Positions 10,516 through 25,765 of a DNA stretch of 64,000 nt are shown here, piece after piece. The first letter of the stretch is position 1; every line of letters starts with the position of its first letter. The notes below the pieces were generated by a model, which was not told the DNA's origin, did not search any database, and worked only from the letters and a program-made list of their open reading frames with translations. This DNA comes from a virus: positions 1-64,000 of IMG/VR virus record IMGVR_UViG_3300033141_004448. One strand, written 5' to 3'. A program made the translations under genes and the position numbers.

Positions 10516-10730
10516 TTGTCCATCTCCTTTAGCATGAAAAGTATTCCGTTAAGTGCCTTTTCAATGGATGATATTCTATTTTCAATCGTTGTTAATCTAT
10601 CAAATTTTGGATTATCACGGTACTGACAGTTATCTATTCCTGGCACGAGGCAAATTGGCTTAAGTTCACCTTGTGCAATGCACGTTGAATTTTTTTCATT
10701 ATAATATTTACATAATTTTATTTCGTTCAT
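10512..10730 (-). CDS. Cysteine-rich N-terminus plus coiled coil
   Basis: A 72-residue protein. Four cysteines in the first 36 residues (LCKYY, STC, PIC, NCQYR) suggest a small zinc site, followed by a heptad-containing helix (LTTIENRISSIEKALNGIL). The coiled coil suggests dimerisation. Function unknown. Confidence 0.6.
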   Translation of the reverse strand: MNEIKLCKYYNEKNSTCIAQGELKPICLVPGIDNCQYRDNPKFDRLTTIENRISSIEKALNGILFMLKEMDK

Positions 10731-11062
10731 TTCATATCCTCCAGCATTTTCTGCAGTTTTTCGAGAATCTCATTATATAAGCGTAACGATTTTTCACGCG
10801 AAGCAAGCCGTGCACGACTCCACAGATCTTCACCAGACATACCACAGATTCCAGCAGTTACGAGTGGACAAAAGGGTTTTTTGTTAAACGGGCTTTCAAG
10901 GTCTCGCTTTCTGCAGGCGTAGTGCTTGCAGAACTGGCATATCTGCAAGTGTAAGTCGTGTGCTTCTGCAGGAGAAAAATGCTCGAATGCGTATATCACT
11001 TCCTCGTACTTGTAAATGGTTTTTTCAAGGCAGAACTTCAGCACTTCATTTCCTTCGCTCAT
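10727..11062 (-). CDS. Cysteine-rich small protein, paralogue of 313-681
   Basis: About 111 residues from the ATG at 11062, which overlaps the upstream stop (ATGA); a longer form from 11092 is less likely. The cysteine knot CQFCKHYAC, then FCPLV and ICGM, with a long C-terminal helix, repeats the plan of the 313-681 protein about 10 kb away, so the two arose by duplication. Zinc binding is probable from the cysteines. Role unknown. Confidence 0.68.
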   Translation of the reverse strand: MSEGNEVLKFCLEKTIYKYEEVIYAFEHFSPAEAHDLHLQICQFCKHYACRKRDLESPFNKKPFCPLVTAGICGMSGEDLWSRARLASREKSLRLYNEILEKLQKMLEDMK

Positions 11063-11409
11063 TTTACATCTTCCTTTTCGAATGCTTCGCAAAGCGTTGC
11101 TATCAGCTCCGCGTTTTTGTTAGGAAAGAGGTGGAAAAGCCCACTCTCATATAGCTTACGATTGTAATAACACATTTTCTTGTGAATGCAGTCGTGGCAA
11201 ACTTTACCCTGTTTTGTGATAAAATCTCTTGTATTGAATAGATTCTCCGCTATGTAATTATCTATGAATTTCTGATCATCCGTGAGTAAATCGTATGGTT
11301 TGTTAGCCTCGTGATTAAAAGAGGAAGGATCGATCTGCTCAATTGCCTCCAGATACCACTCGTGTAATTTCCGAGCAAGCTTTTCAACCTTACCTTCATT
11401 CGTCATCAT
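11059..11409 (-). CDS. Hypothetical protein with CxxC-x4-C motif
   Basis: A 116-residue mainly helical protein. The motif CHDCIHKKMC in the middle could bind metal, with one more cysteine near the C-terminus (TLCEAF). It is coupled to both neighbours. No family recognised. Confidence 0.6.
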   Translation of the reverse strand: MMTNEGKVEKLARKLHEWYLEAIEQIDPSSFNHEANKPYDLLTDDQKFIDNYIAENLFNTRDFITKQGKVCHDCIHKKMCYYNRKLYESGLFHLFPNKNAELIATLCEAFEKEDVK

Positions 11410-11555
11410 TCAACCCTCCTAAAAAATTCACACGTTGTTGCATCATCATATTCATACGTTTCGCAATCACAACAATTGCACCATCCGACATCCAATGGTG
11501 GATCTTCAGCAATCATATAGTGCTCGCAATTTTCACAATAATTATTTTCGCTCAT
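11406..11555 (-). CDS. Cysteine-rich mini-protein (49 aa)
   Basis: Forty-nine residues with YCENCEHY, WCNCCDC and TTCEFF, i.e. seven cysteines, resembling small metal-binding proteins. ATG at 11555; the stop overlaps the next ATG. It has the same build (C-x2-C-x-Y at the start, C-x-F near the end) as the 41-residue protein at 14200-14325. Confidence 0.55.
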   Translation of the reverse strand: MSENNYCENCEHYMIAEDPPLDVGWCNCCDCETYEYDDATTCEFFRRVE

Positions 11556-11563
11556 TTTACTAC

Positions 11564-11710
11564 CTATTCTTTCTTAATCCATTTTACTTTATAAGCACAA
11601 ACGTGTATATCCAAACACACACCTCTCTTTTGTTTTTTCAAAAAAGATGTGAATTCTTCTTCCGACTCTAATTTAAATATATCATTTCCTTTTACTATAA
11701 AAAATATCAT
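11564..11710 (-). CDS. Small hypothetical protein (48 aa)
   Basis: Forty-eight residues, beta-hairpin then helix, no motif. It fits exactly between the glycosyltransferase stop (11714) and the next small gene (11555), with same-strand spacing of a few bases. It could be a short real gene or chance. Confidence 0.45.
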   Translation of the reverse strand: MIFFIVKGNDIFKLESEEEFTSFLKKQKRGVCLDIHVCAYKVKWIKKE

Positions 11711-11713
11711 TTA

Positions 11714-12550
11714 TTACCGCCTCCATTCTCTTTTATCAATTATATCTAATATCTGTTCCACGCGATATTTGTAATCCAATTCTTCGGTATTCACGCGTGA
11801 AATATCCTGATTTGTAATTATATCTTCTTTTGAATGACCGCAAGCAAGTATGTCATACACGCGACCCTGAATCATTTTTCGCTTGACCATGTCTTCATTA
11901 TGCAGGGCGAATATTTGCCCTGCCTGAGTATAAACTTTTCGCGTGTCCTCATACGGAATGTATCTACCCATTATCCTGATATTATCACGAACGAAGTCAT
12001 TCCACCCGTTACCATAAACGTGAATGCCATTCTTGCCACGAAAATGTTCACTCACGATCTCATATTTCCGCTTATCGTAATTTCCCACGTAAAGATACTT
12101 ACAACCATAATCTCCTGAGAAATCCGGTCTGAATGTTTCCGTGTCGGTAGCACACTCAACATGATATGAATTTGGCAGGTCAGAGTTCGGTTCTATCGTG
12201 AGGTAAGCGTCATAATGATATTGATAATTTTCGTCCCAAAAACGCTTCATATTGATCGGTGAAGAAACAATCCAAAATATCTTATGTAAAACGTTTTCCT
12301 TGACGATTTCCTTCACAAACCTATCCAAATTTTCGTTGTTACAATTAGTAATCAATATATCATAATACTTGAACTTGATATTGTTACAATTAAACAAGTC
12401 ATAAAGGTATGCTTTATATCCCATTCGCTTTAATGACGATTGAAATTGAAGAAGTTCAATCGATTCACCCCAACATTCATTTTTATTAATATATTTCGGG
12501 CATATAAGTGCTACTTTTAACTTATTTCCTTGAATTGATATATTCCACAC
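11714..12550 (-). CDS. CgeB-like glycosyltransferase whose N-terminus is duplicated upstream
   Basis: A 278-residue GT-B protein: first strand LKVALICPKYI, then FKYYDILITNCN, and a donor domain with YLYVGNYDKRKYEIV, KNGIHVYGNGW, and MIQGRVYDILACG carrying the conserved acidic region. The likely start, ATG 12550, lies inside the end of the LAGLIDADG gene (28-base overlap). The homology to the family starts only at residue 11. A second, diverged copy of residues 11-32 lies at 13228-13293 on the far side of the endonuclease gene with its own start, so the present N-terminus may have arrived with the endonuclease. Function otherwise normal. Confidence 0.78.
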   Translation of the reverse strand: MWNISIQGNKLKVALICPKYINKNECWGESIELLQFQSSLKRMGYKAYLYDLFNCNNIKFKYYDILITNCNNENLDRFVKEIVKENVLHKIFWIVSSPINMKRFWDENYQYHYDAYLTIEPNSDLPNSYHVECATDTETFRPDFSGDYGCKYLYVGNYDKRKYEIVSEHFRGKNGIHVYGNGWNDFVRDNIRIMGRYIPYEDTRKVYTQAGQIFALHNEDMVKRKMIQGRVYDILACGHSKEDIITNQDISRVNTEELDYKYRVEQILDIIDKREWRR

Positions 12551-13190
12551 ACTCCACTAATTTTCGTTGCTTTCGTTTTATCACGAATCCTATATTATTA
12601 TAATACTTTTCAATCGAATCTTTTTTATCAAGTCTTAATACCCACATCTCTTTTCCACTTTTGAGTGTATTTCTGAATGATAAACTCGAATCAATTTCAA
12701 AATACTGTAATAATAACCGTTGAGCAAATTCTAACCATTTTTTATGCGTGCTTTGTAATCTAAGTTTTAATATAATAAATTTATGACCTTTGTTATTCAC
12801 TCCTCTGTATATTCCACAGTAACCATCAGAATCAAACCATGATTGAAGAAAATGTTTTGGATATTTTTCACATAAATACATCAATCTTTCTTCTGTTTGT
12901 GATTTAAACCAATTATAAAATGGAGTATTTTTTATCTCAAATTTATATAACCATTGTTCACATTTTCTTCTCGGCTTTGTTCGACCTATATACAATTCTC
13001 TGTAATTGTGAAAAACTTTTAAAACATTCCTACCAAACTCCTCGACAAATTCTTTATCTACCGCCGTTAAACGTAATACTCCATTTACTCTATTTCCTCT
13101 TTTTATTCCATAACATCCTCCATCACCAACAATAAAATTACTTAAAATATATGACAGTTCTGGTGATGATTTAATTACAATATTTTTCAT
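12522..13190 (-). CDS. LAGLIDADG homing endonuclease (freestanding, two motifs)
   Basis: A 222-residue single-chain LAGLIDADG enzyme. Motif 1 is LSYILSNFIVGDGG (residues about 12-25), motif 2 is FLQSWFDSDGYCGIY (about 113-127); the acidic residue ending each motif (GDG and SDG) is the metal ligand for DNA cleavage. No splicing motifs flank it, so it is neither an intein nor obviously an intron gene. It is clearly a paralogue of the gene at 14437-15105 (shared LSYILSN, IVGDG, DKEF, YP-FL-SWF-SDG, and RKQR near the end). It sits between a cut-off glycosyltransferase N-terminus and the intact glycosyltransferase. Confidence 0.9.
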   Translation of the reverse strand: MKNIVIKSSPELSYILSNFIVGDGGCYGIKRGNRVNGVLRLTAVDKEFVEEFGRNVLKVFHNYRELYIGRTKPRRKCEQWLYKFEIKNTPFYNWFKSQTEERLMYLCEKYPKHFLQSWFDSDGYCGIYRGVNNKGHKFIILKLRLQSTHKKWLEFAQRLLLQYFEIDSSLSFRNTLKSGKEMWVLRLDKKDSIEKYYNNIGFVIKRKQRKLVECVEYINSRK

Positions 13191-13194
13191 AGTA

Positions 13195-13293
13195 TCACTT
13201 CATTATCCCATACAGTTCTTTTTGTATAAAAATACATTCCCACCATATTTCATTTGGAGTGAAATATTTTGGTGAGATTAACGCAAACTTCAT
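13195..13293 (-). pseudogene. Orphan N-terminus of a CgeB-like glycosyltransferase
   Basis: A 32-codon frame starting at ATG 13293, one base after the stop of the preceding gene, and ending at TGA 13195. It reads MKFALISPKY...NEIWWE and matches residues 11-32 of the 11714-12550 glycosyltransferase at about 12 of 22 positions (KxALIxPKY, NE-x-W-x-E). It then breaks off just before the LAGLIDADG gene. Its tight spacing to the upstream gene suggests this is the original N-terminus of the glycosyltransferase, displaced by the insertion. Confidence 0.72.
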
Positions 13294-13294
13294 T

Positions 13295-14188
13295 TTAACA
13301 TTTCACGCCCCATATCAATGACTCTAACTCGTCTTTTATCCTGTTTTTACACACGCTAAAATCATACTTTGGCTTAATTGCTATTGATCTTACTACCAAA
13401 TCGTTTTCATGTGAATGAATTACCTCTGCAATTCCCAATGCACCGCAAGCTATACGAAAAGAGCGAGAACCAATTTCCCACATTGAATTATAATAATACT
13501 TGCAATTTGCGATTTCACGCAACCACGAATGCCAATGCATTTCTTTGACTTCATTCTCGAACAATCCTTCGACTCTTCCGTTGTAACGCTCACACATTGT
13601 GGCAAGCGTTTTAAGCTTGTATTTTTCTTTGAATAGCCAGCTTAAAATACCGTTATACACCTTTGATACCGAACCGATCACGAGCAATTCATACTCGCGT
13701 TTGTCAAACGGAATTAAGAAATTATCTTTTACCCATTTCACAGGATATGGTGTATAAAAAGTCTTCACGTTATCGTGAATCATGCTGTAGGTATTCATAG
13801 CGCGTTCGTCTTCGTGAACATAAACCATATCCACGTACTCTTTCACGGCTTTAAAGTGATCAACTTGTCCTTGTGGCGACATTCGGAATATCATTGATAT
13901 ATCGTCTTCCTGCAACATTACTATCTTTGCTTTCGGAAAAAAACTCTTGACTTTTTTAAATACTTTCACGTGAAAGTTTTCTGGACCTTTACATTGCTGA
14001 ACGAAGACAATATCAATATCGCCCATATCATGAAATAATATTGGCTTCATAAACTCATTCAAGTTAATATAATACACGTCATTCGGAAATAGATCACCGA
14101 GTGCACCCCAATTATAGTATTTTGGCGGGTTTGTTTCGTGCCGCCACCAACCGTAATCGTTTAATGCCGAAATTAATATCATTTTCAT
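13295..14188 (-). CDS. CgeB-like glycosyltransferase
   Basis: A 297-residue GT-B protein: MKMILISALNDYGWW (first strand), IDIVFVQQCKGPENF, AKIVMLQEDD, VYVHEDERAM, then donor domain ELLVIGSVSKVYNG and MWEIGSRSFRIACGALGI with the conserved acidic/arginine region. It is probably active on a glycan acceptor; donor unknown. The start sits behind GGAGTTGATAAA, the ribosome site repeated across this operon. Confidence 0.75.
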   Translation of the reverse strand: MKMILISALNDYGWWRHETNPPKYYNWGALGDLFPNDVYYINLNEFMKPILFHDMGDIDIVFVQQCKGPENFHVKVFKKVKSFFPKAKIVMLQEDDISMIFRMSPQGQVDHFKAVKEYVDMVYVHEDERAMNTYSMIHDNVKTFYTPYPVKWVKDNFLIPFDKREYELLVIGSVSKVYNGILSWLFKEKYKLKTLATMCERYNGRVEGLFENEVKEMHWHSWLREIANCKYYYNSMWEIGSRSFRIACGALGIAEVIHSHENDLVVRSIAIKPKYDFSVCKNRIKDELESLIWGVKC

Positions 14189-14199
14189 TTTATCAACTC

Positions 14200-14325
14200 C
14201 TATATATCAATTTCTTCGAAATCACTACAGGCAACTGCATCACATTGACACTCCACTTGATGATACTCACAAAAACCAATATCCTCTTCGAGGTAACGCC
14301 AATAAAAACACTCATTACACTTCAT
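14200..14325 (-). CDS. Cysteine-rich mini-protein (41 aa)
   Basis: Forty-one residues: MKCNECFYWRYL, GFCEYH, ECQC, ACSDFEE. The pattern C-x2-C-x-x-W, then C-x2-H and C-x-D-F is a compact zinc-binding build seen in many tiny archaeal and phage proteins. Its ATG overlaps by 11 bases the end of the orphan radical SAM C-terminus (14315), implying the two were neighbours before the endonuclease arrived. Confidence 0.6.
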   Translation of the reverse strand: MKCNECFYWRYLEEDIGFCEYHQVECQCDAVACSDFEEIDI

Positions 14326-14458
14326 TTTTTTTAACCGCACGTAGTATTAATTCAAATATTCTTCTCGGAAATTTTAGTATTCGTAATTTCCACGCAATGT
14401 CTGACCACATTTCGAATGGTACCGACAAAAACCTTCTCAAGCCAGAAAAATTTTTCGA
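14315..14458 (-). pseudogene. Orphan C-terminus of the radical SAM gene
   Basis: Directly behind an in-frame TAA (14459-14461) there is an open stretch of 48 codons, read in a different frame from the overlapping endonuclease tail. It begins KNFSGLRRFLSVPFEMW and matches the last 46 residues of the radical SAM protein (15105-15242), KNFRGLKRLLSLPFELW onward, at 23 of 46 positions. It has no start of its own. Its stop overlaps the next gene start, as for an original gene end. It is best read as the displaced former C-terminus of the radical SAM gene. Confidence 0.8.
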
Positions 14459-15105
14459 TTAAACTCCCTCTCCAGAATCCTCTGTTTTCGAATGATCGTA
14501 AATCCAACTTTTTTATAAAAATTATATTTGTCTTCCTTTTTTGATATACGCAACTCATATACTCTTTTATAGTGTTCTCTTTTCTTTTTACGTTCATATA
14601 TTTTTGTATCTATACCAAAATACTTAGAAAGTAGATATTGTGCGAAATCTATCCATTCTTTATTAGTATTAATTAGTATCAGACTGAAATATTTACCTAT
14701 TGAATTACGGTTTTTCCTACGATAATTATATATTCCAACACTTCCATCAGAATTAAACCACGATATAAGAAATTCACGTGGATATTTTTCGCATAAGCAC
14801 ATTAATTCTTTAGTAGTTTTTGATTTAAACCATTTATGAAATGCTTGACTATAAAAAATTACAAGATAATTTTCTTTTCTATTTTTTGTCCCACGTGGTA
14901 CTGTAATAATAGGAGGATTATTACTCTTACCAAACGTTCGTAAGACATTCTGCATATGGAATCTAAATTCCTCTGTAAATTCTTTGTCTATACTTTGCAT
15001 CCTTATCATAAATTGAGATGGTTTAACAACATACACATTACCATCTCCAACAATTAAATTACTTAATATATAAGACAACGAAGGCGAACACTCTGGTTCA
15101 ATCAT
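14437..15105 (-). CDS. LAGLIDADG homing endonuclease (freestanding, two motifs)
   Basis: 222 residues; motif 1 LSYILSNLIVGDGN (about residues 10-23), motif 2 FLISWFNSDGSVGIY (about 112-126), each with the metal-binding aspartate. It is a close paralogue of 12522-13190 in length and layout. Its start overlaps the radical SAM stop (ATGA), with GGAGTTATAAAAA as ribosome site, and its tail overlaps the orphan radical SAM C-terminus by about 22 bases. No intron core or splice motif was seen. It probably cleaves an allele of the radical SAM gene near its 3-prime end. Confidence 0.9.
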   Translation of the reverse strand: MIEPECSPSLSYILSNLIVGDGNVYVVKPSQFMIRMQSIDKEFTEEFRFHMQNVLRTFGKSNNPPIITVPRGTKNRKENYLVIFYSQAFHKWFKSKTTKELMCLCEKYPREFLISWFNSDGSVGIYNYRRKNRNSIGKYFSLILINTNKEWIDFAQYLLSKYFGIDTKIYERKKKREHYKRVYELRISKKEDKYNFYKKVGFTIIRKQRILEREFNRKIFLA

Positions 15106-16328
15106 TTTTTATAACTCCTTTTTACTAATTGTAATACATATTCGAAGTATTTTTTAGGAAAACGAAAAATACGAAACTTCCATCCAACGTTTGCCCACAG
15201 TTCGAATGGTAATGACAATAGACGTTTTAAACCTCTAAAATTTTTTCTTATATTATCTTTTCTGAATTTCAAACCACATAACCAATATAAACTATGCTTT
15301 GCAATATCGAAATTTACGTGCTCGGGAAACATTCTCTGGAGTTCAGACGGATAACTTGCATAAGTGTACATACTAAATCTTGCCTGAGGAATCCATGATT
15401 TTGTAATATCAATGAATGTCATTAAGTCTAATAAATCTTCACGCGTTTCGGTAGGCAGTCCTACCATGAAAGAGAACATTGGAGATACATTAGGAAATTT
15501 TTTGAATACGAATTCTAACTTAAAGTAGTTTAAAACCGTTGATTTAAACTTGCAATTGAGTAATTCTCTTAACCGCTCACTTGTTGTTTCCAATCCGATT
15601 TCGATTGACACGCAACCGCAATCACTCATTTCTTTTATAGTTTTATAATTGATTTTATTAACGTCCATGTTACAATGCCATTTCATCTTGCATGACTTTA
15701 ATTCTTCTCCAATTCTTTTATCCCACTTGAAATTAGGATCGCCGATAGATACAAAATCGTGACCAGCATTTTTTATTGTCCATATTTCTTTTATTACACG
15801 ATTGACAGGAACTGGAGTCCACTTGCCATTCACGGTACAAAAACGGCATTTATTATTACAGCCGAAACTCGTGAAAAGTAACGGTTTAAATATCTTATAG
15901 AAGCGTTTCGTTTTTTCGGTAACGGGATCTTGCATATCGAATCTTTCATTTATGAAATGCACGTCATAACTTAATGATTTATAATAAAACGATTCGAGTT
16001 TTTCTTTGCCTTTATTTATTGCCTTGTACCCTCCAACATAAAAATTCATAATCCCTAATTTTTCACGAAGATAACCCATTAATAACTCGCAATGTTCCCA
16101 TTGCGTGCCTTCCATTGAAGAAAACATTACATGTTTTGCCTTACCCGCAAGTTCTATTAGCGTATAATAAGAATCACACCGTTCGTCCCAATACTCGACA
16201 TTATACCCTTCTGCTTCATATCGTGCTCCTACTTTCATTATGGAAAGCGGAATGTATTGGTCGCCAGAATGCTCGTCAATCTTTGGATAAATAAGTAAAT
16301 AATCTATTTCATTCATAACATTTTGCAT
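15102..16328 (-). CDS. B12-binding-domain radical SAM enzyme
   Basis: A 408-residue protein. Residues about 8-115 form a cobalamin-binding-like Rossmann domain (LLIYPKI..., VMFSSMEG, NFYVGGYKA). The radical SAM core follows with the 4Fe-4S motif C157-x3-C161-x2-C164 (GCNNKCRFCTVNG), SIGDPNFKWDK, and SIEIGLET. Enzymes of this build (BchE-like) carry out methylations or ring and carbon-skeleton changes on sugars, lipids or tetrapyrroles. Here a sugar or lipid-carrier substrate is likely from context. The last 46 residues have a second copy beyond the adjacent endonuclease gene, so this C-terminus may be imported. Confidence 0.85.
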   Translation of the reverse strand: MQNVMNEIDYLLIYPKIDEHSGDQYIPLSIMKVGARYEAEGYNVEYWDERCDSYYTLIELAGKAKHVMFSSMEGTQWEHCELLMGYLREKLGIMNFYVGGYKAINKGKEKLESFYYKSLSYDVHFINERFDMQDPVTEKTKRFYKIFKPLLFTSFGCNNKCRFCTVNGKWTPVPVNRVIKEIWTIKNAGHDFVSIGDPNFKWDKRIGEELKSCKMKWHCNMDVNKINYKTIKEMSDCGCVSIEIGLETTSERLRELLNCKFKSTVLNYFKLEFVFKKFPNVSPMFSFMVGLPTETREDLLDLMTFIDITKSWIPQARFSMYTYASYPSELQRMFPEHVNFDIAKHSLYWLCGLKFRKDNIRKNFRGLKRLLSLPFELWANVGWKFRIFRFPKKYFEYVLQLVKRSYKK

Positions 16329-16927
16329 GTATCATCACCATTTTTGAATAATACTTCTGATATGTCAAACACGCTATATTTATAAAACCGGACATTGATA
16401 TTTTTCCACACGATCTTTATGTTATGCACCTCATAGCGTAATCGCGGTGGTAATATCGTTATATCGGCATTAAAATACTCTGAAATGTTTATCACGTTTT
16501 CCGTGATGTCGTCAGAAAAATATGGCATATCCGACTGCAAGCGTACAGGCGTGTTAATATCAAGGTATAAACAAAATTGCGTGAATAACTCATTAAAAAA
16601 ATCAAATAATTTTATGTGGTATTTACCGTTTATAATTGACTTTATATCATCTCTATATTTTTTATAATACTTGAATTTATAAAACGTGTCGTCATATTTC
16701 TTCCACAATTTCCTTTGCCACGAAGAATCGCCGTTGTATATACGTATGTCTTCGAATTCAGTGAAACGATTATTAATGACAGGTATCGTTACACCATAAC
16801 ATTTATTATACAATTGTGGCAATTTCTCGCGATCTAACACGACAAAAACGTCTGCTTCCTTTAATGCACGCCAAAAATGTATCGTGCCAAAAAAAGGGAT
16901 GTAATCAATTAATATTTTCCTCATCAT
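16313..16927 (-). CDS. WbqC-like protein (first copy)
   Basis: A 204-residue protein resembling WbqC family members: KILIDYIPFFGTIHFWRALKEADVFVVLD at the N-terminus, then SSWQRKLWKKYDDTFYK and the KYYKKYRDDIK helix, matching the second copy (17810-18544) in order. WbqC proteins occur in O-antigen and exopolysaccharide clusters and are thought to act in making or transferring modified amino sugars; the reaction is not settled. It overlaps the radical SAM start by 16 bases and is probably a partner in the same modification. Confidence 0.72.
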   Translation of the reverse strand: MMRKILIDYIPFFGTIHFWRALKEADVFVVLDREKLPQLYNKCYGVTIPVINNRFTEFEDIRIYNGDSSWQRKLWKKYDDTFYKFKYYKKYRDDIKSIINGKYHIKLFDFFNELFTQFCLYLDINTPVRLQSDMPYFSDDITENVINISEYFNADITILPPRLRYEVHNIKIVWKNINVRFYKYSVFDISEVLFKNGDDTCKML

Positions 16928-17123: not shown

Positions 17124-17810
17124 TCAAATATGGTAATCGACTATTACAACATAATCATTCGGCTTTAGTTTATCGAGAAACCTCTCTTTGAATTTCATTG
17201 CCCAACTTACAACATTTTCTGTTCTTTCGTACCATTTACCATTTTTACACAACACCGAATAGGTATGAAAATACTTACTCGATTTAATTAAATCTTTTTT
17301 ATACTCTTCTGAATATGGAAAGTGTGAAATTTCATATTCAGCTACTATTTGTATTTTCTTTTGTATTCCTTCCCAATCAACCTGAAAAACATACGCACCG
17401 TCATACCCGCATAATCCACTATCACGACCCATTAATCCTTTTTTTCCTTTTATTGCACCAAATGGAGGCTCTTTCAAAAGTAACATTCCTTGCCACCGAC
17501 CGCCAATTTCATACCAGTCATACTTTGCATTTGGGTTACGCCAATAACCATAAACATTTATATTTTCGCTAAATTCATAACCATACCATTTTTCTAACCA
17601 TTCTTTTGCATTCTTATATTCATACTCTTTTTGATAATCTGAATGTTTTACCTTCCACTCTTCGAATTTACTTTCGAGTTCGTCTTTTTTAATTTCAACA
17701 ACAAACTCTTTTTTCAAGCACTCATAATACGGTTTCATCACTTTTTCGAGTTCGTCCCTTATATTTTCTGGTTTTTTAGGGAATACCACCATTAATGCAT
17801 AATGTGTCAT
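17124..17810 (-). CDS. Conserved phage-type hypothetical with NPNAKYDWYEIGGRW motif
   Basis: A 228-residue soluble protein. The segment NPNAKYDWYEIGGRW near residue 90 is a motif I know from many unrelated phage and plasmid hypothetical proteins, usually written W-x-NP-x-A-K-x-D-W-x-x-x-GGRW. Their function is not established. Start behind AAAGGAGTTGATATA. Its presence suggests a widespread accessory protein rather than a glycan enzyme, despite its place in the operon. Confidence 0.7.
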   Translation of the reverse strand: MTHYALMVVFPKKPENIRDELEKVMKPYYECLKKEFVVEIKKDELESKFEEWKVKHSDYQKEYEYKNAKEWLEKWYGYEFSENINVYGYWRNPNAKYDWYEIGGRWQGMLLLKEPPFGAIKGKKGLMGRDSGLCGYDGAYVFQVDWEGIQKKIQIVAEYEISHFPYSEEYKKDLIKSSKYFHTYSVLCKNGKWYERTENVVSWAMKFKERFLDKLKPNDYVVIVDYHI

Positions 17811-18544
17811 TATATCAACTCCTTTGTTTTTTCTCCGATATTGAATAGAGCGTCAATTACGCTCATTTGTGGAATAAATGGTTCATAAACTTGCTCATAC
17901 ACGGGATGCTCATATTCCTGAAACGAAATCTCAATGCCTTCACGTTCGAATAAGTCCATGTCGGCATAATTCTTTCCGTCTGCACCGAATAGGAAATGAT
18001 CGATCTTTAAATTGTAACACAATTGGACAATCTTATCGCTTGCGCTACCGAATAAATATTTCAAGTCTTCCTTTTTTCGTTCCGAATATCTCCACCTGCC
18101 GCCAGACTGGACTATCACGTATGATTTAATATCCAGCCAATTTTTAATCAGGAATATCAATTTGATATTCAATTCGGATAAACGTTTATTTTCTGCACAA
18201 AGAACGCGCTTGATATACTTGTAGTATTTCTTGAAGTATTTTGCTTTGCCGTAATTCACTTCTAACGCACGTAAGATTTTCCGTTGCCAATTCTGAGTGT
18301 TATCAATTTTTATCTCATTAAATCTCATTTGTTTTCCGGTATGAATTATCGGCACGGTTATATATTGCCACCCTTTCTCCGTGCCAATGCGTATCTTATT
18401 CCTGTTATCAAACTTATTCTTATCTCCAAAGTTAGCGGGATAACAATCCATTAATACGAACACGTCCGACCGTTTCATTTTCGACCAAAACCCTAGGTAT
18501 GGAAGAAAAATCGGTTGATGTGCAGACAATATTGTATTTGCCAA
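17810..18544 (-). CDS. WbqC-like protein (second copy)
   Basis: A 244-residue, full-length WbqC-family protein: ILSAHQPIFLPYLGFWSKMKRSDVFVLMD, NRNKIRIGTEKGWQYITVPI, NWQRKILRALEVNYGKAKYFKKYY, and the C-terminal YEHPVYEQVYEPFIPQMSVIDALFN are all family hallmarks. The family works in lipopolysaccharide or capsule sugar synthesis. The start is TTG at 18544, 4-5 bases behind GAGTTGATAG. Together with 16313-16927 it makes a WbqC pair flanking two small genes. Confidence 0.85.
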   Translation of the reverse strand: MANTILSAHQPIFLPYLGFWSKMKRSDVFVLMDCYPANFGDKNKFDNRNKIRIGTEKGWQYITVPIIHTGKQMRFNEIKIDNTQNWQRKILRALEVNYGKAKYFKKYYKYIKRVLCAENKRLSELNIKLIFLIKNWLDIKSYVIVQSGGRWRYSERKKEDLKYLFGSASDKIVQLCYNLKIDHFLFGADGKNYADMDLFEREGIEISFQEYEHPVYEQVYEPFIPQMSVIDALFNIGEKTKELI

Positions 18545-20606: not shown

Positions 20607-20760
20607 AAAAGAAATCGCTATTTCTATGTTAAGTAATTTTTTTGAGAGGAATGAAATATTCAATTTTAAAATATCGGACACGAAAGAATATAATAGTGAC
20701 ACGAATCAACTTATTAGTTGTTTTATCATAGAAATGAATGGGATCGAAAAGAAAAAATAA
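20587..20760 (+). CDS. Small hypothetical protein
   Basis: About 57 residues from ATG 20587, preceded by GAGGTGGATAAAAAG, a good ribosome site inside the end of the previous gene. No motif. Its 3-prime end overlaps the possible start of the PIG-L gene. Confidence 0.5.
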   Translation: MEEKRNEKEIAISMLSNFFERNEIFNFKISDTKEYNSDTNQLISCFIIEMNGIEKKK

Positions 20761-21346
20761 ACTCAGTGAAAATACGTTGAGTAATTTTGATAACTTTTTG
20801 TTTATCGGGGCGCACCCTGACGATATTGTCATTAGTTGCGGTGGAATGATACAACGGTTGTTAAAGCACGGTAAAACTGTAATTGCGTTGTGCTTGACAG
20901 GTTTTAGAAACAAAGTAAGATCGAATGAATATATTAAGGGAATGAGATTATTAAGCGTAAACGATTGGTCAATATTTGAATTTAATGACAAGGAAATCAA
21001 ATTGAAAGAAATTTTACCGTGCATTGAAAAATTCATTTCTTCGTATGAAATTAATACGATATTCACGCATTGGCACGGTTGTGTTCATCAAGATCATAGG
21101 GTAGTATCGGAAGCAAGTCGTATTGCCGCAAGAAAAGGCAACGTGAATTTGATCTACTACGAAGATTACAGGCACAAACTAAGCCAGTTTGCGTGGAAGC
21201 CGAACACGTTTTTCACAATGACAGAAGAAGAGTTGGATAAAAAAAGAAAGGCATTATACTGCCACGAATCGCAAAAAGGAACGTGGATGGAGAAGGTACT
21301 TCGCGATAATGTCGAGCGTTTTGAGATAGGATACTTGTCATTATAA
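20738..21346 (+). CDS. PIG-L/LmbE-type N-deacetylase
   Basis: About 202 residues. FLFIGAHPDDIVISCGGM holds the zinc-binding AHPDD motif, TIFTHWHGCVHQDHRVV the second metal motif (HxDH), and CHESQ near the C-terminus is also typical. Family members remove N-acetyl groups from GlcNAc-type sugars on lipids, mycothiol-like thiols or polymers. It fits with the glycan genes on both sides. The start may be ATG 20738 or TTG 20777 behind CAGTGA; the conserved domain begins after both. Confidence 0.87.
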   Translation: MGSKRKNKLSENTLSNFDNFLFIGAHPDDIVISCGGMIQRLLKHGKTVIALCLTGFRNKVRSNEYIKGMRLLSVNDWSIFEFNDKEIKLKEILPCIEKFISSYEINTIFTHWHGCVHQDHRVVSEASRIAARKGNVNLIYYEDYRHKLSQFAWKPNTFFTMTEEELDKKRKALYCHESQKGTWMEKVLRDNVERFEIGYLSL

Positions 21347-21357
21347 TTCCTCTATGA

Positions 21358-21831
21358 TTATAATCCATGCCACTTTTTATGGCATTCGTCACAAACCGTA
21401 AGAAGATTATCGTGACTAAGTGACATTTCAGGGAATATTATAACACTATTTATATGATGAATGTTTCTAGCTGGTTTTTTTCCGCATATTTTACACGTAT
21501 AATTATCTCGCTTTAATATTTCTATTCTACATTTTGCCCATTCTTTTGAATTGTAAAAATTATTTGCTGACTTGAATCGTTTTTCCCATTCGTTTTTGGT
21601 AAATCCCTTCGGATTGTCGTTTTTTGTCATTCTTATATTGTGGATGTTGCTAGCATTTAATCGTTCTTGTACATCCAGTACCTTTATGATGAGAAGTCTA
21701 CGTTCATCAATCAATTCAGGTGTCATACCACTTATATCGTAATCAATTTCGTCTAATATTTCTCTGCAATATGGTTCATCAATGTTATCTTTACAGTATT
21801 TATCTAATTCGTATATTTTATTAAATTTCAT
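21358..21831 (-). CDS. HNH endonuclease with a shared N-terminal domain
   Basis: A 157-residue protein. The C-terminal half is a complete HNH nuclease: WAKCRIEILKRDNYTCKICG, NIHHINSV, then LLTVCDECHKKWHG, with two CxxC pairs for zinc and the HH pair for cleavage. The N-terminal 50 residues (YCKDNIDEPYCREIL...LLIIKVLDVQERL) resemble the 95-residue protein of 22525-22812, so a common module is used twice in this four-gene inverted cassette. It may be a homing-type or defence nuclease. Confidence 0.85.
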   Translation of the reverse strand: MKFNKIYELDKYCKDNIDEPYCREILDEIDYDISGMTPELIDERRLLIIKVLDVQERLNASNIHNIRMTKNDNPKGFTKNEWEKRFKSANNFYNSKEWAKCRIEILKRDNYTCKICGKKPARNIHHINSVIIFPEMSLSHDNLLTVCDECHKKWHGL

Positions 21832-23134: not shown

Positions 23135-25765
23135 ATGACTATGGCAAAACAAAGAAAGAAAACTGCTATGGCAACACATTCGCCAAATATCCCTACAGGG
23201 TTTGGACGGGTGAGTCGCGAGATATCGTGTTACCTAGGAGATTTTTATCAGCATTATTGCGTGGGATGGCAATTTCAAGGTGAACCCGGGATTTATACAT
23301 TCATGGACGAACCGAAAGGAGGAAACTTTCTTTTATGCCCGACTGCAGTGAACGGTAATTATAACGAATTTGGTCAAAGAACTTTCCCGTTATTCATACC
23401 ATTTGCAAAACCTGATTTGTTGATAACACTTGCAGATTGGTTTGTGTTTTCACCGGGAGCACATAACGGATACATAAATTACAATGATAATTGGTTGCCG
23501 AATTTTCTAAACAATGCAAGTGAACAATTAAAAAAGAAGATACACAACGTATGGTACTTCCCAATCGATTCAACACCGATAAATAATGCATTCATTCGGC
23601 TTCTGGAGAAAACAGAAGTGCCAGTTGTAATGTCAAAATACGGTTCAAAAGAGCTGAAGCGTTTGGGCATATATCACGAGTACATACCGCACGGCGTGAG
23701 AAAGAGTAATTTTCACATTAACTCCGAAGAAAATCGAATGTCGTCAAGGCGTGATATTGCTAATAGATTCCGCAATCACCCATTAATTAATAAATCGTTG
23801 TTGAATAAAATCGAAGATAGTTTTATTTGTTTTCCAGATCATACGCATATTTTAACATCTAACTTCACGCAACAAAAAATAGGTGATTTAGATGATTATG
23901 GTCACGTGATATCTGGAAGTGGGAATATTAGACAATATAAAAAGTTACAACGGAAATATGATGGTTCAATGATCACGTTTAAAGTTCAAGGTAGTTATAG
24001 AAATATTACTTGTACTAATAACCATCCGATACTTGCCGTGAAACGACAAACAATTCAATGTCGATTACCTTCACGACAAAAAAACAGATGTGTATGCCGA
24101 ACTAATAAAGAATCACGCGCGGAACCATGTCGTTCGTGTAAGGATAAGTCATTTAATAACATAATTTGTGATTACTTTCCTGCACGTGAACTTAACACTG
24201 GAGACTTCATTGCGTATCCAATAGAAACAAATTTTAATTCTAAAACTTTAATTGACCTTTCAAAAATACTAAACTTTGAGGGAGAAATTAGAGATGACAA
24301 GATCAGGGCAAGCTGGAATAAAAATTGGGTAAATAGATATCTACCATTAAATGCTGAATTCCTAGAATTACTTGGATATTATATAGCCGAGGGTAATTGC
24401 ATTAAACGAACCGGAATACAATTTACAATAAACAAAAACGAGAACGCATTTACAGAGCGAATAAGGGAACTAGTACAAACATTATTTGGACTACCGATAA
24501 GAATCTACGATCAAAAACAAAACAAGGCACGAATGATTCGTGTCAAGGGAACTATAATCAATAAGATATTTAGCTATTTTGGTGGAGAATATGCCGACAA
24601 GAAGCTCATTTCAAAAGAAGTGATGCAACTCAACCCACGACTTTTACTCAATTTAGTAAAAGGATTTCACCGTGGAGATGGACATTACACAAAAACGAGT
24701 TCTGGTAAAAGAAAACGTTGGGTGCTTACAACAACATCAGAACAGCTTGCGTGGCAGTTACATACCATTTTAGAACGAAATAAGATCTTCTCTAATATTA
24801 GAAAGGAACCAAGATCAAACAGAAAAACAATATATCGTATTACAGTTTATGGTGGATACCTGACTGAAAATCTTGATACTGACACTTACAAAAGAAAATG
24901 GAACACAAAAATTTACTATGATAATTATGTCTTAAAGGAAATAAAATCCAAAGAAACTTATGAAGATAAAATCAATGTCTATAATCTCAGTGTATTCCGT
25001 GATAATAATTACCTAGCAAATAATGCAATTGTCCATAATTGTTTTTGGGGTGGTAGAAATCAGCTTCGTAAAATGCCGCAGTCGCTTGTTGAAGTGTGCG
25101 GTAAATTTGCAAAGGACAAAGAAGACGTGTTATTCATTTTTCACACATCACCAACACCATACGAAGTAGGTTTTACCTTACCATTTCATAATGAGCGATA
25201 CGGGATAAACGATAAAGTGATCTTCACGGAGTCAAGTCAGGTGTACCACCCGTCAAATCACTTCATAAATAATATCATTAATTGCGGTGATGTATATCTT
25301 GATACAGCAGGTGGCGAAGGTTTCGGCTTCTTTAGGCTTGAGTCTGCCGCTTGCGGTCTTCCACGCGTGATGATCAATTGGACAAGCTCAGCAGAGCTAA
25401 TGGGATTGAAAGAAAATGACATACCAATTAAAATTGAAGACGTGATATCTGTTAATGGTGGCGGCGAAACAGAAAATATTAAAACTGAGAGCGGAATTTT
25501 AGTGCCACCAATTACAAGGTGGACAAGCGGTGTCGGTGCAGATTTTGGCTTGATTGACGTTGATCTTGCTGTAGAAGCGTTAAATTACTTATATGACCAC
25601 AGGCAAGAGTGCAAGCGAATGGGAAGAAAAGGAAATCAATTTGCCTTTGAAAATTATAATTGGGATCAAATCCTACCAAAATGGCACGATTTAATTGAAA
25701 CTATATTCGAAGAATATGAACAAATAAAACAGAAAATGGAGCTCGTAATTGACAGTCCAACTTAA
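23135..25765 (+). CDS. GT4-type glycosyltransferase interrupted by an intein
   Basis: An 876-codon frame. Removing residues 232-635 joins DSFI to CFWGGRNQ and gives a 472-residue GT-B protein: HSPNIPTGFGRVSREI (acceptor loop with GFGR), VWYFPIDSTPI, VVMSKYGSKEL, YIPHGV, then VLFIFHTSPTPYE, VYLDTAGGEGFGFFRLESAACG with the two GT4 glutamates (E-x7-E), and NYNWDQILPKW. The intein sits at the start of the donor domain. Start ATG 23135 or 23141. Its 3-prime end overlaps the first tail gene, so it is transcribed with structural genes and may glycosylate virion or host surface. Confidence 0.9.
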   Translation: MTMAKQRKKTAMATHSPNIPTGFGRVSREISCYLGDFYQHYCVGWQFQGEPGIYTFMDEPKGGNFLLCPTAVNGNYNEFGQRTFPLFIPFAKPDLLITLADWFVFSPGAHNGYINYNDNWLPNFLNNASEQLKKKIHNVWYFPIDSTPINNAFIRLLEKTEVPVVMSKYGSKELKRLGIYHEYIPHGVRKSNFHINSEENRMSSRRDIANRFRNHPLINKSLLNKIEDSFICFPDHTHILTSNFTQQKIGDLDDYGHVISGSGNIRQYKKLQRKYDGSMITFKVQGSYRNITCTNNHPILAVKRQTIQCRLPSRQKNRCVCRTNKESRAEPCRSCKDKSFNNIICDYFPARELNTGDFIAYPIETNFNSKTLIDLSKILNFEGEIRDDKIRASWNKNWVNRYLPLNAEFLELLGYYIAEGNCIKRTGIQFTINKNENAFTERIRELVQTLFGLPIRIYDQKQNKARMIRVKGTIINKIFSYFGGEYADKKLISKEVMQLNPRLLLNLVKGFHRGDGHYTKTSSGKRKRWVLTTTSEQLAWQLHTILERNKIFSNIRKEPRSNRKTIYRITVYGGYLTENLDTDTYKRKWNTKIYYDNYVLKEIKSKETYEDKINVYNLSVFRDNNYLANNAIVHNCFWGGRNQLRKMPQSLVEVCGKFAKDKEDVLFIFHTSPTPYEVGFTLPFHNERYGINDKVIFTESSQVYHPSNHFINNIINCGDVYLDTAGGEGFGFFRLESAACGLPRVMINWTSSAELMGLKENDIPIKIEDVISVNGGGETENIKTESGILVPPITRWTSGVGADFGLIDVDLAVEALNYLYDHRQECKRMGRKGNQFAFENYNWDQILPKWHDLIETIFEEYEQIKQKMELVIDSPT
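23828..25039 (+). mobile_element. Intein with LAGLIDADG endonuclease (404 aa)
   Basis: Starts at Cys232 (CFPDHTHILTSNF, block A), block B is TCTNNHPILAV (TxxH), and it ends IVHN followed by Cys636, all the residues for standard splicing: Cys1, the block-B His, terminal His-Asn and a +1 Cys. Two endonuclease motifs: FLELLGYYIAEGN (protein residues about 409-421) and LLNLVKGFHRGDGH (about 504-517). Between blocks B and C lie six cysteines (intein positions 78, 88, 90, 101, 104, 114), perhaps a zinc finger. It is unusual in sitting in a glycosyltransferase rather than a replication gene. Confidence 0.92.

Follow-up and report, generated by a model that had tools for sequence, protein, structure and literature searches.

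Gene hybrids arising from mobile endonuclease ORFs have been described in fungal mitochondria, and one report lists atp6, atp9, cox2 and nad3 of Glomus sp. together with atp6 of Allomyces macrogynus (PMC3630166, citing Paquin 1994). As presented there, the endonuclease ORF brings with it a C-terminus of foreign origin, which becomes fused to the gene and leaves the native end stranded downstream, and the role of the endonuclease in mobility is said to have been shown biochemically (PMC3630166). N-terminal versions have been reported from Tremella (PMC7315562). Among viruses, the free-standing endonucleases of T4 (SegA etc.) lie between viral genes and spread by break repair with co-conversion of the flanks, according to a review which also records one-sided illegitimate break repair in T4 intron homing (PMC2988022). 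Endonuclease islands of phages are found at exchange boundaries, where they bracket a gene block that differs between viruses (PMC10448857). Word searches returned no mention of duplicated gene ends in the T4 review (PMC2988022) and no terminus duplication in PMC10448857, and the open-licence literature searched contained no earlier report of a terminus swap in a phage or archaeal virus.

Here, we describe two LAGLIDADG endonuclease genes, HEG1 and HEG2, each flanked on its two sides by diverged copies of the same gene end. As in Allomyces and Glomus, where the endonuclease ORF (mostly LAGLIDADG) also separates two diverged copies of a C-terminus and the gene body continues into the inserted copy (PMC3630166), one copy is at both loci in frame with the gene body and the other is stranded. 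The two copies of Glomus atp6 are 63.5% identical in DNA, as given in the same paper, compared with 63% here, while the setting differs, being fungal mitochondria in one case and a tailed virus in the other. On the best explanation, the HEG1/HEG2 arrangement works like the fungal mitochondrial gene-hybrid elements, in a probable archaeal tailed virus.

Anatomy of the two loci

The window, i.e. the whole stretch of DNA analysed, covers positions 1-64000 of a virus record 66,636 bp in length. A preliminary description had pointed to a radical SAM gene that ends normally, a LAGLIDADG gene that begins in its stop codon and, beyond this, a startless second copy of the last 46 or so codons whose stop overlaps the next small gene. 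We recovered each of these elements, and the locus contains the following features:

15102-16328 (-): radical SAM gene, 408 aa, presumed hybrid (ORF; Pfam PF04055 Radical_SAM, E 8.8e-16)
15243-16328 (-): presumed native body of the radical SAM gene (GC3 0.329)
15102-15242 (-): attached C-terminus, presumed donor, 46 codons and stop (GC3 0.217, like HEG1)
14437-15105 (-): HEG1, two-motif LAGLIDADG endonuclease, 222 aa (Pfam LAGLIDADG_3 and AlphaFold/Foldseek)
14315-14458 (-): orphan C-terminus, presumably how the radical SAM gene originally ended (similarity to the attached copy; GC3 0.319)
14200-14322 (-): small Cys-rich ORF, presumed native downstream neighbour (ORF list and sequence; native-like codon use)

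The radical SAM ORF has its stop at 15102, and its TGA is overlapped by the ATG of HEG1 (ATGA); the attached C-terminus contains a AAAAGGAG-type ribosome site serving HEG1, which was rated good. The orphan C-terminus consists of 47 sense codons at 14318-14458 (-) in a third frame, with neither an internal stop nor an ATG, followed by a stop at 14315-14317 that overlaps the small Cys-rich ORF (ATG at 14322) by 8 nt. The last 7 or so codons and the stop of HEG1 are orphan DNA read in another frame. The orphan and attached C-termini share 23 identical residues over 45 to 47 aligned codons (52% over 44 aa by tblastn; E 5e-14 in a profile search of the whole record), and their local score of 150 was reached by 0 of 2000 shuffles, which averaged 28; the next best ORF of the window scored 42 with the C-terminal query. 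Translation of the orphan as a small protein was considered and set aside, the only start being a TTG with no visible ribosome site.

A second case, the mirror image of the first, lies 1.3 kb from it, where HEG2 stands between two copies of a glycosyltransferase N-terminus:

13295-14188 (-): gene between both endonuclease inserts (ORF list; GC3 0.406)
13195-13293 (-): orphan N-terminus with its own ATG, presumed original glycosyltransferase start (12 of 21 aa identical to the attached N-terminus)
12522-13190 (-): HEG2, LAGLIDADG endonuclease of 222 aa with two motifs, paralogous to HEG1 (43% identity, E 3e-45)
12425-12520 (-): attached N-terminus, presumed donor (GC3 0.188, like HEG2)
11714-12550 (-): glycosyltransferase-like gene, weak Glyco_trans_1_2 match, presumed hybrid (ORF and Pfam)
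11714-12424 (-): presumed native body of the glycosyltransferase gene (GC3 0.405)

The orphan N-terminus reads MKFALISPKYFTPNEIWWECIFIQKELYGIMK over 32 codons, stopping just short of HEG2, and its ATG lies 1 nt past the stop of the 13295-14188 gene, for which no Pfam match was obtained. The glycosyltransferase gene opens with LKVALICPKYINKNECWGESIEL, and 12 of these first 21 residues agree with the orphan. About 21-24 codons match in this short duplication, which had an E of 0.001 when the window was compared with itself; the pair scored 62, a value attained by none of 3000 shuffles, and the runner-up among the ORFs of the window scored 35. In the attached copy, TTA stands where the native ATG would be, with AAGGA before it (12520-12550, -), and the sole common start in frame is a GTG inside HEG2 that would add 10 residues; the gene thus seems to have lost its native start. 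This N-terminal case extends the proposed mechanism beyond C-termini. An all-against-all six-frame self-comparison of the window revealed no further orphaned gene end, so that both stray ends adjoin the two free-standing LAGLIDADG genes.

Endonucleases, copy divergence and composition

Both endonucleases match PF14528 (LAGLIDADG_3) above the cut-off (E 2.1e-14 for HEG1 and 1.6e-9 for HEG2) and carry two acidic motifs, LSYILSN[LF]IVGDG and FL.SWF[ND]SDG, whose aspartates are identical in the two proteins. The AlphaFold model of HEG1 is of middling confidence (pLDDT 67, pTM 0.69), and its best PDB match is I-DmoI, an archaeal intron endonuclease (Foldseek E 4e-7, probability 1.00); as modelled, the fold of HEG1 is that of a LAGLIDADG protein. 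Both enzymes are predicted to cleave DNA at specific sites. They are encoded by separate ORFs which overlap their neighbours by 4 and 29 bases and, like the T4 free-standing endonucleases, lie between genes, outside any intron or intein. The T4 Seg and Mob enzymes differ in being of the GIY-YIG or HNH type and in cutting hundreds or thousands of bp away (PMC2988022).

Two other possible mobile nucleases were observed in the window. A glycosyltransferase gene of 876 aa at 23135-25765 (+) has an in-frame LAGLIDADG insert resembling an intein, which is the third PF14528 match of the record. A small ORF at 21358-21831 (-) with a terminal HNH-like motif may be a further mobile nuclease gene; no duplicated neighbour ends were detected around it in the window self-comparison.

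Nucleotide identity is about 62-63% in both copy pairs, dN is 0.37 for both, and dS is 1.6 for the C-terminal pair or saturated. The differences between orphan and attached copies are concentrated at third positions. Such a dN, combined with near-saturated synonymous change, argues that the copies diverged as working genes and not by decay in place. Several stops would also be expected in a pseudogene that had decayed where it lies. Stops make up 9% of out-of-frame codons in native genes, a rate at which a run of 47 stop-free codons has a P of about 0.01. As outgroup we used L113, an archaeal radical SAM homologue found with the radical SAM query in a Thermoplasmatota genome sample; in its genome this homologue is single copy at the threshold used, with one such C-terminus. 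It aligns with both viral C-terminal copies over the same region with scores of 53 and 49 and, being about equally near both, suggests that the orphan is little decayed. In all likelihood, the copies were working gene ends while they diverged, each in its own lineage, and were united recently.

In Allomyces and Glomus, element-free relatives reveal the native copy (PMC3630166), whereas here it was assigned by position and by codon composition over 32 to 46 codons, the latter a weak substitute for relative-based trees. At the radical SAM locus, GC3 is.329 in the body and.319 in the orphan, versus.217 in the attached end and.209 in HEG1; at the glycosyltransferase locus, the corresponding values are.405 and.344 versus.188 and.197 (HEG2). 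When synonymous composition was tested with a correction for amino-acid content, the attached ends as a pair were unlike native windows (P 0.012) and fitted the endonuclease windows (P 0.33), and the orphans as a pair were unlike endonuclease windows (P 0.010) and fitted native ones (P 0.20). The best change point in HEG2 plus the glycosyltransferase gene falls 37 codons into the latter (lnL 15.8, compared with 11.4 at the HEG2 boundary), near the end of the orphan copy and with a wide support interval; for the radical SAM gene alone, no significant change point was found (P 0.17). Single contrasts are weak, with P between 0.02 and 0.19, among them the terminus contrast within the radical SAM gene (P 0.125), the direct paired comparison of GC3 (P 0.07) and the four-segment contrast against native windows (P 0.19). 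Composition is therefore suggestive of attached ends that came from a donor and of orphans that are native.

Proposed route of gene-end replacement and its alternatives

We consider it likely that the two free-standing LAGLIDADG genes entered by one-sided intronless homing between diverged viruses, replacing gene termini. Each endonuclease gene would have adjoined a homologue of its target gene in a donor virus richer in AT, HEG1 right after the radical SAM stop and HEG2 right before the glycosyltransferase start. The enzyme would cut the recipient target, near the 3' end in the radical SAM gene and near the 5' end in the glycosyltransferase gene, and the broken gene body would invade the donor homologue and copy its terminus together with the adjoining endonuclease gene. 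The other side, having no homology, would be end-joined directly to the remaining recipient end. The product would comprise the recipient body, the donor terminus, the endonuclease gene and the stranded recipient terminus, C-terminal at HEG1 and N-terminal at HEG2, and the hybrid gene would presumably have lost the cleavage site.

The mirror-image anatomy common to two paralogous endonucleases speaks for one-sided homing. Each attached end overlaps its endonuclease gene, and these overlaps, with the ribosome site for HEG1, give attached end and endonuclease the appearance of long-standing neighbours. The outer junctions of the orphans look native, a stop overlapping the next gene in one case and an ATG following the previous stop in the other, while the inner joins look crude, HEG1 borrowing its stop from orphan DNA, as expected of such a join; orphan and endonuclease gene look like new neighbours. 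HEG1 and HEG2 bracket a single native block (the small gene and the 13295-14188 gene), with homologous genes only outside it, and this accounts for one C-terminal and one N-terminal case. Replacement of a terminus, as proposed in the preliminary description, is the best explanation and gains strength from the second mirror case, the equal coding-type divergence and the codon composition, but a fixed cassette bringing its own terminus is not required, since ordinary free-standing homing with one-sided homology would lead to the same arrangement.

If this is true, terminus replacement would be a general outcome of homing with one-sided homology and not a peculiarity of fungal mitochondria, and viruses would gain a route to hybrid enzymes. 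Stray gene ends beside endonuclease genes, easily missed in annotation, would also be explained. A gene end duplicated across an endonuclease gene can readily be searched for and marks a candidate cleavage site, so that sequence could serve to predict the targets of free-standing enzymes. A broader reading, which we hold only tentatively and with slightly less than even confidence, is that paired related endonucleases bracket a cassette of the glycan region and swap termini both ways, providing archaeal viruses with a recurrent route to hybrid surface-glycan enzymes; beyond fungal mitochondria, the papers searched described nothing of the sort.

Glycan gene clusters often contain tandem paralogues. 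Two radical SAM and two glycosyltransferase genes could accordingly have existed side by side, endonuclease insertion with deletion leaving only terminal stubs. The window does contain other diverged paralogous pairs, all on the (-) strand (WbqC-like genes at 16313-16927 and 17810-18544, small Cys-rich ones at 313-681 and 10727-11092), and the divergence of the copies would also fit old paralogues. Nevertheless, two independent deletions would be needed, both ending beside an endonuclease gene and each leaving just the abutting terminus, while the attached ends match the endonuclease genes in codon composition and not their own gene bodies, and the genome of the archaeal homologue has, at the threshold used, just the one copy. 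We therefore regard decayed tandem duplicates as unlikely.

Less probable still is the capture of a middle fragment, in which both endonucleases would have cleaved the DNA of a co-infecting virus, and a virus that already possessed HEG1 and HEG2 would have had the excised piece joined in between the two. That piece would comprise the orphan C-terminus, the small gene, the 13295-14188 gene and the orphan N-terminus. The orphans do face each other and bound one native-looking piece of 1.3 kb, but the radical SAM and glycosyltransferase bodies share the composition of this piece, unlike the attached ends and endonuclease genes, which makes two foreign tracts a simpler assumption than a single capture.

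Some of the cases in fungal mitochondria carry an intron annotation (PMC7315562, PMC4019555); diverged copies of part of a gene stand on either side of the mobile element, and partial gene replacement has been proposed. These introns lie within genes, whereas HEG2 is free-standing before its gene and no intron was found. Splicing out of the attached end and endonuclease gene, joining the body to the orphan, is highly improbable here: a search of 11500-16500 against Rfam, with E up to 1, gave no intron, HEG1 fills the whole space from the attached stop to the orphan with no room for an intron RNA or core, and the unspliced radical SAM gene is complete. An assembly artefact or chance similarity, conceivable in a metagenome-derived virus contig, is just as improbable, since copies differing at 37% of bases are no collapsed or mis-joined repeat and there are two cases, with scores reached by 0 of 2000 and 0 of 3000 shuffles.

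The virus, its relatives and its glycan genes

The gene content of the window includes a tail sheath, a terminase, a capsid, a family-B polymerase and an ERCC4 nuclease. In the phage collection, the closest match of the terminase is Halogranum tailed virus 1 (29%), which makes a tailed virus of archaea likely, short of proof. Viral contigs were searched for relatives with the radical SAM protein, HEG1, an alignment of HEG1 and HEG2, and the terminase and capsid alignment as queries. Nothing was returned besides IMGVR_UViG_3300013103_000157 (L003), the sole related contig found, a fragment of 10.9 kb from a related virus with 84% identity in the best terminase segment and 77% in the capsid; mainly structural and packaging genes were seen on it, and no endonuclease. 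The collections searched (viral contigs, phages and plasmids) held neither an endonuclease-free close relative nor a donor.

Degenerate patterns at the DNA level were drawn from the shared C-terminus (L004-L008), from the second motif of the endonucleases (L010, L011, L015-L024) and from the radical SAM cysteine motif (L026-L105), and all their matches were attributed to chance or very distant similarity. Among phages and plasmids, tblastn detected no radical SAM relative, and a weak HEG2 match (H1) was discarded, as it lies inside an apparent intein of a terminase gene and is not free-standing. HEG1 and HEG2 had one weak match in 390 Thermoplasmatota genomes, within a 999-residue frame, and 380 genomes contained no relative of the glycosyltransferase.

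The archaeal radical SAM homologue L113 is flanked by a glycosyltransferase-like gene and a PIG-L-like deacetylase gene, and a PIG-L-like gene is also present in the virus (window 20738-21346, +). The occurrence of this gene in both places suggests that the viral glycan genes resemble a host surface-glycan cluster.
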